Shown: in pieces, positions 4,101 through 28,326 of the stretch
Layout: the number at the start of each line of letters is the position of its first letter
How positions within the stretch are numbered: the stretch's first letter is position 1
Origin: a virus
Length of the DNA: 32,442 nucleotides
Strand: one strand, 5' to 3'
Virus record (IMG/VR): IMGVR_UViG_3300006224_000026
Span: 1 to 32,442 of that record
The notes under the pieces: generated by a model
What the model was told of the DNA's origin: nothing
The model's input: the letters and a program-made list of their open reading frames with translations, nothing else
The model's database searches: none
Made by a program: the position numbers and the translations under genes

Positions 4101-6518
4101 GGCTAATTCTTTTGTCACTCTATCTTGGTTAAGCCGCATAGCTTCTTTTTCATACTTTTCAGTATTTCTTGCTTTTAGCTTAACGTCATTAATATATTGC
4201 TCAGTAATACCTTTGCTTGCATCTGGTTGAAATGATGCGTTTTCGGCTTGTTTTTGATTAAGCTTAATCATGGCATTGGTATTATCTTCTAAAGATTTAA
4301 CCATGTTATCAAATGCGCCAGCCATAGCAGAAATGCCGCCTAAAGCACCATCAAATACAGATGATGATATATCGCCTAAGCCGGTTAGCTTGTCTTTTGT
4401 TTGATCTAATGTTGAATTATATGATTCCAGAGATTTTCTGGTTTCATCGATTTTCTTTTGTTTTTCTTGCTCTTTAGTGACTTCATCGAACTTATTCAAT
4501 AATGGGCCAAGTTCTTCTCTTTTTACGCCACTAGCTAATAATTTTGCGGCATAAGCATCACGCGCAGATAGAGTTAATTGATTGTATTGTTCAATTAAGC
4601 TATCCATAGCTGATTTTTGAGCGTCTTGCCCCTTTTTGACTGAGTTTTGAAAATCTAATTCATCCGCTTGTTGTAATAAATATAACTTCTTTGATTCACT
4701 AAGATGCTGCAAAGAACCATTAATCATGTCATATTCTAAAGACGCTGATTTTGATGAATCTCCACGCAATGCAATTTCTTTTTGCATGTTATATAATGAA
4801 CTTTGATACAAATCATCTAATCGTTTAGCTTGATTTTCTGCGTCTTGTATTACTTTTTTTGCAGCCGATTCTGATTCTCTTTTTATTTGTTCGTTTTTCT
4901 CATGAACCGCTTTAGCTTGCTCTTGCTCATCCTTTATTACAATTTCAGTGTACCAATCTTCGGCATCAGCCATCATGCCCATGTTTTTTTCTTTATCTTT
5001 TAAAGCTTGTTCATCGGCTGCTTTATTAGCTTCTGTAGCTGGTTTTGGTGGTACGTAGTCAGGCCCACGCATACCTCTACCTTTTATTTCTTCGGCTTTA
5101 TTGTAGTAATCAACAACAACCTTTAACTTTGCCGTTATTTCGTCCAAAGTACCAGACACAGCATCAAGAACAGGCGATACAGTGCCGTTTACAGGTTGCT
5201 CAAGTACTTTCATTAACTCAGTCCATGAGTTCTTTATATCGGTATATTTAGCACTTAGATTGTCACCAGCAGCGGCAGCAGCACCTTCATAGTTAGCAAA
5301 TGCTTTTGGCAATATTTCGCCAAACATTTGCGAAGTAACGCCACCAGCAGAGACTACCTTTTTAAAGTCGCCTATCGCACTTTCTCCGGTATAACCAGCA
5401 GCATTAGCAATCTTTAGCATTAAGCCTGGGATAGGGTCAGTAACCTGCTTCATTTCCTCCCATTGTAGAGTCCCTTGGCTTAACGCTTGCGTCATACCAA
5501 CCATAGACATTTTTAAGTCATTAGCAGATGCGCCTGTTTTACTTTGTGCGTTACTTAGCCCCTCTAAAATGTTTTTCGCTTGCTCCCGCGTGATAACCCC
5601 TGTTTGTTCAATAACTAATAAACGAGCAAATGAATCTGACATATCAAGAACATTTTTATGATGTTCTTTTGATACTGATGATAGATACGCTTCCGTAGCT
5701 GCATAATCTTGAGCCGATGAAGTTAAACCTCTCAATCTCATTTCAAGATTTTGCACTTGCTCAACCGTATCAAGCATTAGTTTTCCAATACCAATGGCAG
5801 CACCAATACTGGCATAACGCAAAGCTAACGTGCTTAATGATGACGTTAATTTATTGACTTTTGGTTCAGCTAATTCAGCTTCTTTTTCTATTCCAGCAAT
5901 TAAAGCTAATCTACCTGATTGAGACATGCCACTAGAAATATTGCCCTTTATTTGCGAACCAAATGAAGTTGGTGCAACGCCAGATGACATTTTTTGAGCA
6001 AACGATTGTTGATCTTTGAATAAATTTTCATACATTAACTTCCTTGAATTGTATGAAGCTTTTGTAGCGAACTCTTCCTGATCTAATCTTTGTTTTTCCA
6101 TTCTCAATAAATGAGCATTTCCTTCTGCTACATCATTTACATATTTTTTGTAATTTGCTGTTTTTTGATCGAGAATTTGTTTGTCAATTTGAGCATTAGC
6201 TTTTAACGCTTCGGTATGATCTTTATTCTTTTGTATTAATTTGTTTATTAAAGCTATTTCTTCATTTGCATAGCCTTGAACCTGCATTTTTCTAGCATTG
6301 TAGACAGATGAAGATTCAGTGAGCTTAGAAATGTACAGCTCCATTGACAGAGCGGCATTTTTATTAGCTTTTACAGAATCTTCGCTTGTTCTGTTTAACT
6401 CTCTTGTGGCCGTTTGTGCTTTTTGAGCAGATACAGTAAGGTTATCTAGGTGGATTTTAGACTCTACTACACCACTGGTTTTGATTTCTATGCCAAGTTG
6501 AGCTAGTGTAGTAGACAT
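1143..6518 (-). CDS. Tail tape measure protein
   Basis: At 1791 residues this is the longest gene in the window. It begins directly after the chaperone stop codon, the usual gene order for lambda-like tails. Residues about 250-440 look like the tape-measure N-terminal domain, with motifs such as VQNLEMRLRGLT, GTLQWEEMKQV and PIPGLMLKIANAAG. The rest is mostly Ala/Gln-rich helix and coiled coil, with hydrophobic stretches near residues 230-250 and 830-895 that could enter the host membrane. Near residues 1696-1720 is the C-terminal motif EVPNDMLANIHKGERILP, common in tape measures, followed by a final coiled coil. By the usual 0.15 nm per residue, the tail would be roughly 270 nm long (inference). 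Confidence 0.95.
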   Translation of the reverse strand: MSTTLAQLGIEIKTSGVVESKIHLDNLTVSAQKAQTATRELNRTSEDSVKANKNAALSMELYISKLTESSSVYNARKMQVQGYANEEIALINKLIQKNKDHTEALKANAQIDKQILDQKTANYKKYVNDVAEGNAHLLRMEKQRLDQEEFATKASYNSRKLMYENLFKDQQSFAQKMSSGVAPTSFGSQIKGNISSGMSQSGRLALIAGIEKEAELAEPKVNKLTSSLSTLALRYASIGAAIGIGKLMLDTVEQVQNLEMRLRGLTSSAQDYAATEAYLSSVSKEHHKNVLDMSDSFARLLVIEQTGVITREQAKNILEGLSNAQSKTGASANDLKMSMVGMTQALSQGTLQWEEMKQVTDPIPGLMLKIANAAGYTGESAIGDFKKVVSAGGVTSQMFGEILPKAFANYEGAAAAAGDNLSAKYTDIKNSWTELMKVLEQPVNGTVSPVLDAVSGTLDEITAKLKVVVDYYNKAEEIKGRGMRGPDYVPPKPATEANKAADEQALKDKEKNMGMMADAEDWYTEIVIKDEQEQAKAVHEKNEQIKRESESAAKKVIQDAENQAKRLDDLYQSSLYNMQKEIALRGDSSKSASLEYDMINGSLQHLSESKKLYLLQQADELDFQNSVKKGQDAQKSAMDSLIEQYNQLTLSARDAYAAKLLASGVKREELGPLLNKFDEVTKEQEKQKKIDETRKSLESYNSTLDQTKDKLTGLGDISSSVFDGALGGISAMAGAFDNMVKSLEDNTNAMIKLNQKQAENASFQPDASKGITEQYINDVKLKARNTEKYEKEAMRLNQDRVTKELAGSRQMVGAAAKMFDEKSSAAKALHALETTLAVAQMAMQAKEMAMSVMATGKSLVAGAAKFFEQSGWFGFAGVAAMGALMAGLGYGAFGGSGGSSKPPEYSSDTGTVLGDSSAKSESVSKTYQLLKDIHASEYATLQSIDRGISNLHTGINDVITRLFQAGGLTTVNTQAAKNSIGGIGGAIQIGAMLGSGGLAKFDPIANKVLGFLFGGKTTSTVTAQGIQTGATSLNSIMSGGDLSAQQFATIETVRKGGLFSKTKTSYSTQYAALDQSTQKALNDVFSSMGKTMLGLADNLGMGLSARVRNYIIPALSVDLKGLNGEDAAKKLNGVVSAALDTMSVSVFGDVLAQYQQLGEGMLETAVRIVAEVAVVKDAVAMSGLSLGNNAIAVADALVTAAGGLKDFQQQFESFFDKFFSDAEKQSKLYDQLSSQFNRLNIFLPATREGYKKLADGLDLTNKQDQERYNMLLKLSDTADKYYSGLEDANAKAQQLADETAAKAAQLVKNRHSLEIQLLEAQGKTAEALVRKRQEELAAMDESLRTTQLAIYAAQDYAKAQADLNAAIQKSVTEANNALDVAFNQLQKVVNAQIQEQQDLLNSLTNIADKLHAALGITTGATQNVTLQTRAQSQAIIQSALEFAKGGGSLANFAGLEDALTEVSKPAEQLYSSFADYSRAQARVSSTISQLSQYADDQVSEAQQALTVLEQILVQAQLQVDVLRNVNTSMLTVPVAMENFTVKLDAATLAQTYAIQTNTTATGSVSDAMQAFIAAGNAASSAQLALAQQTASSQANTAQAIIDAAQLQTTSTMTTTGAVMQVRVAIADLASQLSGFMSKNSAAWEASRSAWSANAWAWDNYVGSFQYLLQRTSSKWSQGYEPWTNANITSAAAAANIPGFAVGINEVPNDMLANIHKGERILPAADNKELMMRLSEPRQSDNKELNAEIRFLRNEVSKLQISNAEIARTNKRMADILINVTRDGQSVLTTPA

Positions 6519-6902
6519 CTATTTCTTATCCCGTTTCTGTTTCTCAGCCTGATGGTTAAGATATACAATATCTAACCGTTTAATAATCTTTACGTCCATT
6601 GTCGTTACGCCAGAATCCGTGAGGTTATTCCATGCTTGTATTTCACTATAACTGATCGGATTTGAGCCAAACCCGCTTGAAGTTCTAGCGTTATGCAGTT
6701 GTATGAAATAACCCCAAACAAGCTCCATTCCCTCTGGTAGCTTGATTTTTTCAAATTCTTCCTGATCTGGATGTTTAAATCCGTTTTGTTTCTCAAACAT
6801 CTCAAAGTGAGCGGCTCGTGATGAGCCGTCACCTTGATCTGAGTTTAATTCAAAATTGTTTTTGGCAAATAAAACGAGTTGTTCTATTTGCCATTCTTGA
6901 AA
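6519..6902 (-). CDS. Tail assembly chaperone, T part of a G-GT frameshift fusion
   Basis: The frame reads without a stop from 6914 to the TAG at 6521-6519 and is most likely translated as an extension of the upstream chaperone by -1 frameshifting, giving a fusion of about 261 residues. An ATG at 6800 would give a separate 93-residue protein, but 34 sense codons between the slip site and that ATG encode protein-like sequence (FQEWQIEQLVLFAKNNFEL), which argues for the fusion. The C-terminal part, with IQAWNNLTDSGV and IKRLDIVYL, matches the general pattern of phage T-type chaperones. The tape measure ATG follows the stop with no gap. Confidence 0.85.
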   Translation of the reverse strand, partial: FQEWQIEQLVLFAKNNFELNSDQGDGSSRAAHFEMFEKQNGFKHPDQEEFEKIKLPEGMELVWGYFIQLHNARTSSGFGSNPISYSEIQAWNNLTDSGVTTMDVKIIKRLDIVYLNHQAEKQKRDKK

Positions 6903-7303
6903 TTTAAAATATTCTCACTCGCAGCTTTTACTTGATCTGCCAATGATTTGTTATTAATCAACGCTTGTACGGCTAAAGCATGAGAATATTCTTCGGCAAT
7001 GCCAGACCAGCCTACGATGCAAGCCGCCAAGTTTTCGAAGTTATCTTCGATAATTTCTTCAATATCTTCTAAAGGAATTTCTTTGCCTTTCTTTTTCAGA
7101 AATTCTTCTTGTTGACGTTTTCTGTTAATTTTGGCAAAGATAGCTTTTTTAACTTGTGGCGATTGGTCGCCTACAACTTGGATTCTCCAAGGTGTTTCTT
7201 CGCCGTTTTCGTCTAAATATGGAAATTCAAAAGCATTACTACACTTAGCTGAGGCATTAAAATCTGCGAGAGATAAGACGGGTTTTGATGTTTCGTTTGA
7301 CAT
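6884..7303 (-). CDS. Tail assembly chaperone, G part
   Basis: A 139-residue acidic, helical protein encoded just before the T frame and the tape measure gene, in the position of lambda gpG. Such chaperones coat the tape measure while the tube is built and do not enter the virion. The N-terminus holds a short beta segment (EFPYLDENGEETPWRIQV), followed by charged helices with KKAIFAKINRKRQQEEFLKKKGKE. Its last codons carry the slippery sequence that produces the GT fusion. Assignment rests on gene order, size and the frameshift. The primary sequence is too diverged for a firm family name by eye. Confidence 0.85.
   Translation of the reverse strand: MSNETSKPVLSLADFNASAKCSNAFEFPYLDENGEETPWRIQVVGDQSPQVKKAIFAKINRKRQQEEFLKKKGKEIPLEDIEEIIEDNFENLAACIVGWSGIAEEYSHALAVQALINNKSLADQVKAASENILNFKNGK
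6902..6908 (-). other. Programmed -1 frameshift site (T TTA AAT, overlapping A AAT TTC)
   Basis: In the reading frame of the upstream chaperone the codons ATT TTA AAT TTC form two overlapping X XXY YYZ heptamers, TTTAAAT at 6908-6902 and AAATTTC at 6905-6899. A -1 slip at either joins the same downstream frame. The downstream frame is open only from 6914 and the upstream frame stops at 6886-6884, so the shift must occur in a window of about 28 bases that contains exactly these heptamers. Confidence 0.85.
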
Positions 7304-7339
7304 AAAGTTATTATTTTCTCTTGTTGTTGGTAAGGCAAA

Positions 7340-7372
7340 ATGTTTGGCAGCTAAAATATAACTGCCAAACGT
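7340..7372 (-). terminator. Hairpin between HNH gene and chaperone gene
   Basis: A perfect 9-bp stem (GTTTGGCAG at 7342-7350 with CTGCCAAAC at 7362-7370) has an 11-base loop and can be extended by two pairs. It lies just past the HNH stop codon. On the minus strand it is followed by ATTTTGCC, a poor U-tract, so it may be a weak terminator or an RNA stability element. Confidence 0.5.
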
Positions 7373-7385
7373 ATTTAGTTAAAAA

Positions 7386-7970
7386 TCAAATATGATTCCA
7401 TCTGTTATTATTTTTTATTCTTGATACGTTTGATTGTGTTATTCCATAATCACTAGCAATTTCTTCCTGTTTTCGATTGTCACTTCTTATTGCCATAACA
7501 ATTTCATCTGTAACTTTTGCTTGATTTCCTTTTCTTTCCCCGTATGCGTGTCTATCTTTCATAACCATATCCTCCATGTTTTCTTTATGCGTTCCTAAAA
7601 ACAAATGATTAGGATTTATGCATGACGGGTTATCGCACTTATGACAAACATCAATACCGTATGGTATTTTTCCAATATTTGCCTCATAAGATGATCTATG
7701 AGCAAGCATTACTTTGTTGTTTATACTTATTCTTCCGTAACCAGTATTTGTTAGTGGACTCATCCATATTTGACAGCCACTTTCAGTAATTCTTTCTGAT
7801 AAGCTTTCTAGCCTATCTTTTATATTCATATGCCCAGTATAAATAACGTTTCCATAAAAATTTCCTTTCTTTAACTCTGCTGTGTAATGAGATTTGCATA
7901 ATCCTCTTGCATGAATTTTCTTATCACACTTTGCACATTTCTTTATATCTGTTATACTGTTTTTAGTCAT
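7386..7970 (-). CDS. Free-standing HNH homing endonuclease
   Basis: A 194-residue protein with an intact HNH nuclease core. A zinc knuckle is formed by Cys12, Cys15, Cys25 and His28. The core includes GYGRI at about 77-81, AHRSSYE with His91, VCHKCDNPSC with Cys109, His110, Cys112 and Cys117, the INPNHLFLGT signature with Asn119 to His122, and His128. Residues about 152-190 look like a helix-turn-helix (EEIASDYGITQSNVSRIKNN) that would give site specificity. It sits alone between the tail tube and chaperone genes, has its own GGAG ribosome binding site 6 bases before the ATG, and is bracketed by hairpins. It is probably a mobile element inserted in the tail operon; its target is unknown. Confidence 0.92.
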   Translation of the reverse strand: MTKNSITDIKKCAKCDKKIHARGLCKSHYTAELKKGNFYGNVIYTGHMNIKDRLESLSERITESGCQIWMSPLTNTGYGRISINNKVMLAHRSSYEANIGKIPYGIDVCHKCDNPSCINPNHLFLGTHKENMEDMVMKDRHAYGERKGNQAKVTDEIVMAIRSDNRKQEEIASDYGITQSNVSRIKNNNRWNHI

Positions 7971-7998
7971 TGTAACTCCGACAAGTTATATTGATTAG

Positions 7999-8032
7999 AA
8001 ATCCCTATTATATATCAGTATAATAGGGATTT
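7999..8032 (-). terminator. 14-bp hairpin after the tail tube gene
   Basis: Arms AAATCCCTATTATA (7999-8012) and TATAATAGGGATTT (8019-8032) are perfect inverted copies with a 6-base loop. The hairpin lies directly downstream of the tail tube stop codon and upstream of the HNH gene. On the minus strand the stem is followed by CTAATC rather than a long U-run, so it may be a partial terminator that raises tube protein output over downstream genes. The minus-strand sequence TATAATAGGG could also serve as a -10 box for the HNH gene. Confidence 0.6.
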
Positions 8033-8048
8033 TGTTTATTATTTTAAA

Positions 8049-9269
8049 TTAAGCAAAAGCGGAATCATAAACAGTAAATGTTGTCTGCTGTGATGATGTT
8101 CCAGCACCTCCACTGCTATTTAATAGCGCGGTAAATGGCATTGTCATTGTTAATGACTTAACCCCATCATCCTTTGCTGCACCTCCGAATTTCAATCTAG
8201 GAATAACAAATGATTGATATCCAGCCGCAGCACTATTTGAGTCTGTAAATACACCAACTAAAGAAGATTCAGTTTCATTGTCAAATAAATCTCTAAGTGT
8301 TGCATCTTGGAAAAGTACAGTTGCGTTACCTGATACTTTATAAATACCAGCAGTTACGTCAGGAGATACGTTAGAACCTACGACAGCGCCAACAGCGGTT
8401 GATCCGTTATCAACGCTAAAATCTAAGCCTGTAACAGTTGCAACCTTAGTACCGCCAACATAAAGCGCACCATTAACAGCAGCTAAAATTCCGGTGCTGG
8501 TTACGGCGGTTGGAGTAGTGAAATAGGCTGATGTACTGGTGTCCATATCCAGACCGATAACGCTAAAGTCAACGGTAGACATGCCGGTAGGAGGAAGTTT
8601 TACATCCATTTTGGTAAACACGCAGTCGGTAAACTGTTCTGACTGGGTAATGTCAGAGTAAGCGTGTTCAATCGTCCAGTAGTCTTTGGTATGGGCCGTT
8701 AAAGGGATAGATATAAATTTAGATGATGCGGCTGTCACACTATCGCCAGACGCTTTAGATACGATGGCAGTACCATCTAACGTGGTTACTGTCATAACTG
8801 TGGAAGTCAATGCAGTAATCAACATATTTTTAGTGTTGTTGCCAGTTGCAACTGTCCATCCAGTCCAACGGACCACCATGCCTACTTTAAAGCCCAGTGT
8901 CAGCCAGTTAGCACCTACAGTCGTGAATGTTCCGGCTGTCCCGGTAGTTGTTGCCGCTGTAACGTCAGTCAATGCGCCAGATGAAACCGCAGTAGATGCA
9001 GCAGCACCTAAAGTTGATTCCATGAAAGATTGATATGTGCCGGTGCTTAGTTCGCCTGAAATAGTTCCGCCAACCTTACGCAAGCCGTGACGAAAGTCAG
9101 CAACTTGACGATCTGGCCTAATTTCAGCCGATTCATAAGTGTCTTTGGTTAATTCGATGTTAGACGATGTACGTCTGTAATATTGAGCAGAATCGGCAGT
9201 TGCTTTAGTGCCGAGTGCTGATTGTTTTTTTGCTACTAAAAGTTTTGAAATCCCGGAAGCAATAGCCAC
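8049..9269 (-). CDS. Major tail (tube) protein
   Basis: A 406-residue protein starting at a GTG with an AGGGG ribosome binding site 10 bases upstream. The N-terminal half has the phage tube pattern SGISKLLVAKKQSALGTKA, YYRRTSSNIEL, ESAEIRPDRQVADFRHG and GGTISGELSTGTYQSFME, as in tail tube proteins of the Phage_tube group. Residues about 100-170 form a beta-rich insert (FKVGMVVRWTGW, NMLITALTSTVMTVTTLDGTA) that is probably a surface domain. The remainder continues the tube fold. It lies between the tail terminator and chaperone genes, as expected. The protein should be one of the two most abundant in the virion, which fits the promoter-like leader and downstream hairpin. Confidence 0.88.
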   Translation of the reverse strand: MAIASGISKLLVAKKQSALGTKATADSAQYYRRTSSNIELTKDTYESAEIRPDRQVADFRHGLRKVGGTISGELSTGTYQSFMESTLGAAASTAVSSGALTDVTAATTTGTAGTFTTVGANWLTLGFKVGMVVRWTGWTVATGNNTKNMLITALTSTVMTVTTLDGTAIVSKASGDSVTAASSKFISIPLTAHTKDYWTIEHAYSDITQSEQFTDCVFTKMDVKLPPTGMSTVDFSVIGLDMDTSTSAYFTTPTAVTSTGILAAVNGALYVGGTKVATVTGLDFSVDNGSTAVGAVVGSNVSPDVTAGIYKVSGNATVLFQDATLRDLFDNETESSLVGVFTDSNSAAAGYQSFVIPRLKFGGAAKDDGVKSLTMTMPFTALLNSSGGAGTSSQQTTFTVYDSAFA

Positions 9270-17948: not shown

Positions 17949-17977
17949 ACTGAGCAATAACAGTAAATATTGGCGAA

Positions 17978-18009
17978 GCTGTGACGATATGGGAATATCT
18001 AAGGACAGC
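17978..18009 (+). ncRNA. Nested hairpin in the leader of the zinc-ribbon-like gene
   Basis: GCTGT (17978-17982) pairs with ACAGC (18005-18009), enclosing a second stem GATAT (17986-17990) with ATATC (17995-17999) and a GGGA loop. The element ends 32 bases before the ATG at 18042. It could be a translational control element or a protein-binding site. No known riboswitch class was recognised. Confidence 0.4.
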
Positions 18010-18041
18010 ACCTAATTTTAACAACAGCAAAGGTTGACAAA

Positions 18042-18263
18042 ATGAAAGAGCCATTAATACATAGCCATATAACAGATGGATTACCAAGTAATCATAAATT
18101 AGCAAATGAATTTATTTATTGTAAAATTTGCAATTCAATGTTACATGCCGATAATAACGAATGTATGCAAACATGGATTGAGTCAGGAACTGGCAACTAT
18201 TGCCTAAAGTGCTTTTCAAGATCAAAAGGGGCTGTTCTTGAAATTTCAGATGCGATTGAATAA
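18042..18263 (+). CDS. Small protein with a treble-clef or zinc-ribbon-like Cys pattern (73 aa)
   Basis: A 73-residue protein with Cys residues in the order FIYCKICNSMLHADNNEC and GNYCLKCF, that is two CxxC knuckles about 25 residues apart, typical of a zinc ribbon or treble clef. The ATG is preceded by AAAGGTTGAC, a usable binding site. Such small phage zinc proteins often act in transcription or host takeover, but the sequence gives no specific role. It stands just upstream of the structured RNA region and is the last gene before it. Confidence 0.72.
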   Translation: MKEPLIHSHITDGLPSNHKLANEFIYCKICNSMLHADNNECMQTWIESGTGNYCLKCFSRSKGAVLEISDAIE

Positions 18264-18304
18264 GAATACACAATAACCGTCGCCATTAGCGGTTTATCTA
18301 GTAG

Positions 18305-18376
18305 CAACATAAATAACCATTAACATGCCTGCTGGAAGCTGGTGGGAACGCGTCTTGTTAGTGGTTATCTATGTTG
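18305..18376 (+). ncRNA. Long hairpin RNA (21-bp stem, one mismatch)
   Basis: Bases 18305-18325 and 18356-18376 are inverted copies over 21 positions with a single mismatch and one G-U pair, around a 30-base GC-richer loop (18326-18355). No gene covers this 230-base stretch, in a genome where gaps are otherwise short. The last four bases of the stem overlap the 5' arm of the tRNA-like fold that follows, so the two structures exclude each other in part. It could be a structured regulatory RNA or the stem of a larger RNA. Confidence 0.6.
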
Positions 18377-18472
18377 GTGTGCGTCGATATTGGTAAAGGC
18401 GACCCGAAACAGGTAATGCTGTGTGGATATGGTATAAAGCCAATTAGTGAAGGTTCGATTCCTTCCGCCAAC
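18373..18472 (+). ncRNA. tRNA-like RNA without a recognisable anticodon arm
   Basis: GTTGGTG (18373-18379) can form a 7-bp acceptor stem with CGCCAAC (18466-18472). CGTC and GGCG (18382-18385 and 18398-18401) form a D-like arm with a GG-containing loop. GAAGG-TTCGATT-CCTTC (18449-18465) is a canonical T arm. The central 47 bases (18402-18448) do not form a 5-bp anticodon stem with a U33-type loop, and the total of 100 bases is longer than normal tRNA. It may be a decayed tRNA, a tRNA with an insertion, or a tRNA mimic that is part of the structured RNA upstream. No CCA is encoded. Confidence 0.5.
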
Positions 18473-18492
18473 TTCAATTTAATGAGGATAAT

Positions 18493-18684
18493 ATGAATAT
18501 AGAAGAACTGAAAGAAGAAAAGTTACTACTTGAAAACAATATAAGATCATTGGTAAATTCGTTTATTAATAAAACTGACTTGCCTATTTATTCTGTAAAT
18601 ATTGATATGATTGATTGTTCATTAGTTGGTAAAAGAATACCTAATTATATGGTAGATAAAGTTAGAGTTATGGTTAATTTGTGA
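18493..18684 (+). CDS. Unknown small protein (63 aa)
   Basis: A 63-residue protein starting at an ATG with GAGGATA upstream, placed 20 bases after the tRNA-like RNA. The N-terminal half is a charged helix (MNIEELKEEKLLLENNIRSL), the rest a small alpha/beta tail (DLPIYSVNIDMIDCSLVGKR, MVDKVRVMVNL). This outline resembles short phage proteins of unknown role. It overlaps the next gene, whose GTG start lies across its TGA stop. No catalytic or metal motif is visible. Confidence 0.7.
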   Translation: MNIEELKEEKLLLENNIRSLVNSFINKTDLPIYSVNIDMIDCSLVGKRIPNYMVDKVRVMVNL

Positions 18685-27990: not shown

Positions 27991-28326
27991 TTATAACTCC
28001 AAATCCTTAACGGCTAATTTAACTTTTTCACACATTAATTGATGCATCTTTTCTGCCGCTTCATAGCTAGAGCATCTATCCATTTCGCCATCTAAAGGCC
28101 CACCAAATACCATTGTTTCAAATAATAATGGTTCTTTATTATCGCCTAATGAATGATCTATGCCTAGAAATACAGTTGATACTGTCACTTGACCAATACT
28201 TTTACCTCCAATTTTAATATTCGCAATATCCTTTTTTACTATCCTATCCGCACTAGAAACCCATTGCGCCCATTTAATCATGTCTGGCTCTGGTATTGCT
28301 TTTTTGTCTTTTAGTATGTAGTTCAT
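27991..28326 (-). CDS. Conserved phage protein of unknown function (111 aa)
   Basis: A 111-residue protein with MNYILKDKKAIPEPDMIKWA, QWVSSADRIVKKDIANIKIG, then VSTVFLGIDHSLGDNKEPLL, FETMVFGGPLDGEMDRCSSY and a helix EAAEKMHQLMCEKVKLAV. The segment STVFLGIDH....PLLFETMVFGGPLDGEMDR is highly typical of a family found in many phages and prophages, of unknown function. It appears in early or accessory regions, as here, and has no catalytic signature. Its stop is one base before the ribbon-helix-helix gene. Confidence 0.8.
   Translation of the reverse strand: MNYILKDKKAIPEPDMIKWAQWVSSADRIVKKDIANIKIGGKSIGQVTVSTVFLGIDHSLGDNKEPLLFETMVFGGPLDGEMDRCSSYEAAEKMHQLMCEKVKLAVKDLEL

Follow-up and report, generated by a model that had tools for sequence, protein, structure and literature searches.

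In the 32,442-base IMG/VR virus record IMGVR_UViG_3300006224_000026 (36% G+C; the whole of this stretch is called the window below), positions 18373-18473 carry the scaffold of a transfer RNA (tRNA) with a 47-nucleotide (nt) centre in place of the anticodon arm, and a long hairpin (18305-18376) stands directly 5' of it. Together, the two structures occupy a 229-nt gap separating two plus-strand open reading frames (ORFs). More than 100 other viral contigs show the same combination of an intact scaffold with a variable centre that is not an anticodon arm, often with a hairpin on the 5' side. On balance, we think it probable that 18373-18473 encodes a non-decoding, tRNA-shaped phage RNA, which would be excised from its transcript, with a centre that would act in trans and the hairpin as a leader. 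The scaffold, the missing anticodon arm, the 5' hairpin, the operon-like gap and the recurrence of the design can all be seen in the sequence or in its comparison with others.

A tRNA scaffold without an anticodon arm

The acceptor stem is paired at seven of seven positions (one G·U), the D stem (18382-18385/18398-18401) at four of four and the T stem at five of five, the latter closing the loop UUCGAUU. All 16 pairs of the scaffold are thus intact, as are U8, G18G19, U48 and the T loop. The unconstrained minimum free energy (MFE) structure of 18373-18473, calculated with RNAfold, yields the acceptor, D and T arms in a cloverleaf-like outline, and so recovers unprompted the fold that a preliminary description of this sequence had drawn, with its 7-base-pair (bp) acceptor, D arm and T arm. 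A search for a T arm, an acceptor, U8 and a D-loop GG in combination matched the real window once; 200 shuffles gave no match. The fold energy of the whole 227 nt is only moderately better than that of shuffled sequences (z = −2.54), the tRNA-like part by itself is not unusual (z = −1.74), and 120-nt windows across the region are unremarkable. Energy alone would thus have missed the element; its specific pairing is what reveals it.

A 5-bp anticodon stem with a 7-nt loop and U33 was looked for in the centre, and none was found. The MFE structure of the centre consists of two small hairpins, CCG..ACAG-GUAAUG-CUGU.UGG and UGGU-AUAAA-GCCA, so this region is not unstructured; the preliminary description was right about the absent anticodon arm and is amended by these hairpins, which do not rise above chance. 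Antisense matches of the centre to the window reach at most 11 nt, which is close to chance by a rough estimate.

ARAGORN reported no tRNA on the element. The Rfam tRNA model RF00005 gave 13.2 bits, through the T arm only, with a cut-off of 29 bits, and no Rfam family scored above its cut-off in the region. Judged by its sequence, 18373-18473 is therefore not an ordinary tRNA. With introns and a low threshold, ARAGORN does call a tRNA-Tyr at 18373-18473, along with 237 other places, which makes that call uninformative. A host parent tRNA was sought by scanning genomes with the acceptor pattern; only two ordinary tRNA-Ser genes were obtained, and no parent was identified.

We built a covariance model, R1, from 56 elements of the class described below, leaving out the window and allowing pairs only in the acceptor, D and T arms. 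In this training set the scaffold covariation is 0.725, compared with 0.166 after shuffling, and 99% of cells are paired; these figures are partly due to construction, as the set was picked for acceptor and T pairing. R1 has one clear match in the window, at 18373-18472, where it scores 39.3 bits (E = 5.6e-10); its next best score there is 16.7 bits. This second match (27997-28097, minus strand, E 0.006) lies inside the ORF at 27991-28326 and is probably a chance hit. R1 establishes the tRNA scaffold, and the placement of the element in the class follows from the missing anticodon arm. Among the readings that had been proposed at the outset, a tRNA mimic is the one best supported, by this independent match and by the failure of tRNA finders to see the element.

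Close relatives of the window copy were not found. Querying phage records by blastn with the window region returned nothing similar, the exact T-arm 24-mer had no match in IMG/VR, and records related via the capsid, the TSCPD-domain protein or the 73-residue protein encoded upstream contained no convincing match to the element. A pattern composed of the acceptor, D loop and T arm led to contig L028, which has several tRNA-like elements with odd centres and short 5' hairpins.

The 5' hairpin and its overlap with the tRNA-like fold

The 21-bp stem with one mismatch noted earlier at 18305-18376 stands up well: 20 of its 21 positions are paired, including one G·U, and the remaining one is an A·C mismatch. 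With inverted repeats required to have arms 20 long, 18 or more matches and a loop of at most 60, it is the sole such repeat in the window, and none appeared in 100 dinucleotide-shuffled windows or in 2000 local shuffles. Folded alone, the hairpin has z = −4.62. It abuts the acceptor and is longer than the 5' hairpins of the class elements. Theta ribozymes are known to adjoin phage tRNAs (PMC10879173); as a source of the 5' hairpin they were rejected, there being no match to Rfam families of the hepatitis delta virus type in the window.

Only the bases GUUG at 18373-18376 are common to both folds. The overlap from which competition between them had been deduced is real, and the deduction holds only in part, as both structures can largely form together. 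Over 18300-18473, the hairpin shortened by 4 bp plus the tRNA-like fold gives −49.4 kcal/mol versus −52.2 kcal/mol for the full hairpin, a cost of 2.8 kcal/mol. Over 18264-18490 the cost of keeping the tRNA-like fold is 9.3 kcal/mol, because the upstream segment GUCGCC can pair with the D-arm strand (Table 1). These energies leave out the tertiary contacts of the tRNA elbow. As calculated, competition between the two folds is possible but mild, and they would largely be able to coexist.

The same numbers bear on the earlier suggestion of an RNA that switches between folds. Such a switch would control the downstream gene through mutual exclusion of hairpin and tRNA-like fold. The bases shared at 18373-18376 and the pairing of GUCGCC with the D arm would provide the means for it. 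We nevertheless consider a switch very unlikely, as 4 bp alone are exclusive, a cost of 2.8 kcal/mol over 18300-18473 that leaves any tertiary gain from the elbow out of account, and the shared segment is missing in those class members that have a linker between hairpin and acceptor.

Table 1 Features of the tRNA-like element, its 5' hairpin and the flanking ORFs (window coordinates)
Feature	Positions	Strand	Details
Upstream ORF	18042-18263	+	73 amino acids; homologues in viral contigs L035-L042
GUCGCC	18279-18284	+	Alternative pairing with GGCGAC 18398-18403, breaking the D arm
5' hairpin	18305-18376	+	Arms 18305-18325/18356-18376; loop 18326-18355 with inner stem CCUGCUGG/CUGGUGGG
Acceptor stem, 5' strand GUUGGUG	18373-18379	+	Pairs with 18466-18472; first four bases common to the hairpin
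U8 G9 (tRNA numbering)	18380-18381	+	Alignment to model R1
D arm	18382-18401	+	Stem CGUC/GGCG, loop GAUAUUGGUAAA, G18G19 at 18392-18393
Central region replacing anticodon arm and variable loop	18402-18448	+	47 nt; last base U48
T arm GAAGG UUCGAUU CCUUC	18449-18465	+	Stem 18449-18453/18461-18465
Acceptor stem, 3' strand CGCCAAC, and discriminator-position U18473	18466-18473	+	No CCA encoded
Downstream ORF	18493-18684	+	63 amino acids; possible ribosome-binding site GAGG 18484-18487 just 5'

A class of tRNA-like elements in viral contigs

Two pattern scans of IMG/VR, each returning at least 120 stretches, define the class; the counts that follow for them are among the matches listed. The first scan used TTGGTANANGC-N{43,73}-GGTTCGANTCC, and 104 of 123 matches are tRNA-like, with 6-7 of 7 acceptor pairs, 4-5 of 5 T pairs and centres that are not anticodon arms. 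ARAGORN overlooks most of these elements. One acceptor lineage, AGUCAGG/CCUGACU, is prominent, and about half of this first set has other acceptors. In the second scan only the T arm and the 3' acceptor of the commonest type were specified and the centre was left unselected. A fully complementary 5' acceptor is present in 175 of 185 matches, which represent 161 distinct elements of 68-190 nt (median 104). A canonical anticodon arm occurs in only 6 of these 161, while the D-loop GG is found in 152 and an A after the acceptor in 148. When all R1 hits are considered, a canonical anticodon arm is present in 2 of 106 with the commonest acceptor type versus 43 of 115 with other acceptors.

The elements also occur in arrays among ordinary tRNA genes, with at least 12 aberrant elements in contig L114 (7183-12206) and eight in L049 (285-3472). 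In both arrays nearly all members have the acceptor AGTCAGG/CCTGACT (at most one change) and the T arm ACAGG/CCTGT, with centres that differ; the L114 elements at 7991 and 8524 are identical except for one base. A further array of aberrant-centre elements lies on the minus strand of L028 (IMGVR_UViG_2585427860_000004; reverse-complement coordinates 5200-8312), several of them behind hairpins with the loop GGTTCGTGAGAATAG. Terminator-like hairpins, with loops similar to GGTTCGTGAGAATAG and a T run, precede elements in L052, L058 and L093. A single 110-nt element stands beside a tRNA-Trp gene in LR756501, a 735-kb uncultured phage record.

A pseudoknot in the centre is predicted with p ≤ 0.05 in 24 of 97 class elements, the mean score being 23.3 compared with 20.0 after shuffling. 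By eye, three elements (in L058, L088 and L028) resemble kissing loops.

In many class elements a compact hairpin ends 3-6 nt short of the acceptor, and some of its loops recur, GGAAAGAC among them. A 5' hairpin with a loop GGAAAGAC, TGAC in front of it and a short A-rich stretch linking it to the tRNA-like element, was seen upstream of elements in L046, L081, L062, L109, L049:1775, L128 and L114:11360. The 50 nt upstream of class elements have a mean z of −0.75 (standard error 0.10) versus −0.03 (standard error 0.09) in a control 300 nt away, a trend that is only partial, as the downstream stretches also reach −0.47. The hairpin is absent from part of the class; it is probably part of the design.

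With this class the window element shares the tRNA scaffold, the lack of a canonical anticodon arm, the enlarged 47-nt centre and the direct 5' hairpin. It lacks the central pseudoknot, itself a minority trait, and the AGUCAGG/CCUGACU acceptor with A73, its own acceptor being GUUGGUG/CGCCAAC. The support for the group is better than that for the window copy, as regards both its membership and its function. No Rfam family covers the class elements, and no description of such RNAs was found in a literature search that most subscription journals lie outside; this group of phage RNAs is apparently not catalogued.

Comparison with known RNAs

T4 RNAC (rnaC, species 1 RNA) is the nearest class-like RNA that has been seen experimentally: a small phage RNA from the tRNA region, detected by Northern blot, whose role is unknown (PMC9697503, PMC3014915). 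R1 matches the 3' part of T4 rnaC (L284:1409-1547) with 26.3 bits (E = 8e-7). Blastn with the window region gave no match in phage records, yet R1 matches both the window element and rnaC. The two are alike in the acceptor-like pairing and T arm (confined to the 3' part in RNAC) and in having no normal anticodon arm, whereas RNAC has 139 nt, shows no D arm in the R1 alignment and adjoins tRNA genes. In isolation, its 3' part folds into an acceptor-like stem, a small arm, a 10-bp variable-like arm and a T arm. With diverged RNAC homologues the R1 score drops to 15-24 bits. A different terminal stem, joining the true 5' end to the 3' end, fits equally well; it is suggested by these homologues, with an A-U to G-C change. 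The sequence comparison suggests kinship, and RNAC is a possible example of the same kind rather than a proven homologue. T4 rnaD had no R1 match.

Canonical phage tRNAs (RF00005), including those of class II such as tRNA-Leu, share the acceptor, D arm, T arm, U8, G18G19 and U48 with the window element, which differs from them in the missing anticodon arm. Transfer-messenger RNA (tmRNA, RF00023) has a similar T arm and acceptor, and phages bearing class elements can carry a tmRNA (L048, L050). The window element differs in its length of about 100 nt, in its D stem and in having no tag reading frame, and tmRNA was rejected as a candidate, RF00023 scoring only 7.7 bits, through the T arm only. 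Murine gammaherpesvirus 68 transcribes tRNA-like units together with hairpins, which lie 3' and make microRNAs. Compared by description only, these RNAs resemble the window arrangement in combining a tRNA-like unit with hairpins and differ in their animal-virus origin and the 3' position of the hairpins.

Y RNAs are known tRNA mimics that have been reported in mycobacteriophages (PMC12282133), and the window element, on our reading, is like YrlA (RF02553) a non-coding mimic of tRNA. A phage Y RNA of the YrlA type, tethering Ro60/Rsr, is nonetheless a most improbable identity for the element. RF02553 gave no match at E up to 10, a TROVE/Ro60 gene is absent from the window and from 30 other records, nearly all of them element-bearing, and the element has the arm order of an ordinary tRNA.

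Genomic context

The nearest relative of the window capsid protein is that of Caulobacter phage DMCA (66%), and portal, scaffold and exonuclease genes are identifiable. The 73-residue protein encoded upstream of the element contains CxxC pairs and a conserved NECMQTW motif and matched no Pfam or PHROG family; a search for relatives of the downstream 63-residue ORF gave none. The tRNA-like element ends 10 nt before the GAGG motif. Elsewhere in the window, the gap 5' of the upstream ORF (17949-18041) has a small hairpin, GCUGU-GAC-GAUAU-GGGA-AUAUC-UAAGG-ACAGC. The strongest predicted RNA structure of the window is at 6721-6900 (z −9.2, minus strand), in the neighbourhood of the gap that separates ORFs 6519-6800 and 6884-7303. 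An ORF on the minus strand at 7386-7970, beside a tail gene, resembles an HNH homing endonuclease by eye.

Discussion

The proposed RNA would be cut out of an operon transcript by host tRNA enzymes, in steps modelled on what RNase P, 3' tRNA nucleases and the CCA-adding enzyme are known to do. RNase P would cleave at 18372/18373 and a 3' tRNA nuclease near 18473, and CCA addition would then give a stable product. The hairpin would serve as the leader and, once RNase P had cut, would be left as a cap at the 3' end of the upstream mRNA. The centre may be the working part, held on the tRNA scaffold, and its target in trans may be an RNA or a tRNA-binding protein of the host or of a rival; we put this forward with less confidence than the excision steps.

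Several observations weigh against this proposal. R1 also scores canonical tRNAs, so its match proves the scaffold and not a function. The discriminator is U73 in the window, versus A73 in most class members. The synthetases LeuRS, SerRS and AlaRS can dispense with the anticodon, so A73 members might conceivably be charged, whereas charging of the window RNA with its U73 is unlikely. The centre folds no better than chance (z −0.91), and a pseudoknot there is not significant (p = 0.52). Neither phage records, nor 24 records around the relatives, nor the pattern scans yielded a homologue of the window copy, and because it is a single copy without a close homologue, no covariation is available for the element itself. 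No promoter or terminator signal above chance was found, and the structure upstream of the class elements is set apart only partly from that downstream.

The main rival is a decaying tRNA, also named in the preliminary description: a former class-II-like gene acquired by the phage, which would have lost its anticodon arm by insertion or recombination and would now be functionless. tRNA genes are common in phages, nothing in the element can be recognised apart from its tRNA-like arms, its centre is not structured beyond chance, and a single copy with no homologue in relatives leaves room for decay in this particular case. However, nothing recognisable is left of the anticodon arm although the 16 scaffold pairs are all preserved, together with U8, G18G19, U48 and the T loop, and the same intact scaffold with a replaced centre is found in more than 100 contigs, in arrays that mostly lack a decoding parent. 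We therefore regard decay as unlikely, though it deserves more weight than the other alternatives.

Less probable still is a cis-acting processing signal, in which the fold would draw RNase P and a 3' tRNA nuclease to cut a polycistronic mRNA between 18263 and 18493, the hairpin would protect the new 3' end and the excised piece would have no role. The position of the element between two same-strand ORFs, its end close before GAGG, the hairpin immediately before the presumed RNase P site and the greater structure upstream of class elements than in the control are all consistent with such a signal. It leaves unexplained the arrays of other members and their lengths of 68-190 nt with different centres, and the hairpin is not universal.

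Beyond the excised, trans-acting RNA proposed for this locus, we tentatively envisage a broader picture, possible but more doubtful: the window element may belong to a widespread uncatalogued family with a constant tRNA scaffold processed by host enzymes and hypervariable, non-decoding, trans-acting centres, often arranged in arrays or behind a 5' hairpin, and shaped by conflict with hosts or rivals. If these RNAs are made, many phages would produce tRNA-shaped molecules that are unable to decode, and phage 'tRNA genes' would have to be counted differently. The class would then also offer a concrete frame for T4 RNAC, an RNA of the tRNA region to which no function has been assigned. The conserved outside and variable inside of these elements suggest natural tRNA-scaffolded RNAs, a design that has hitherto been used by engineers.
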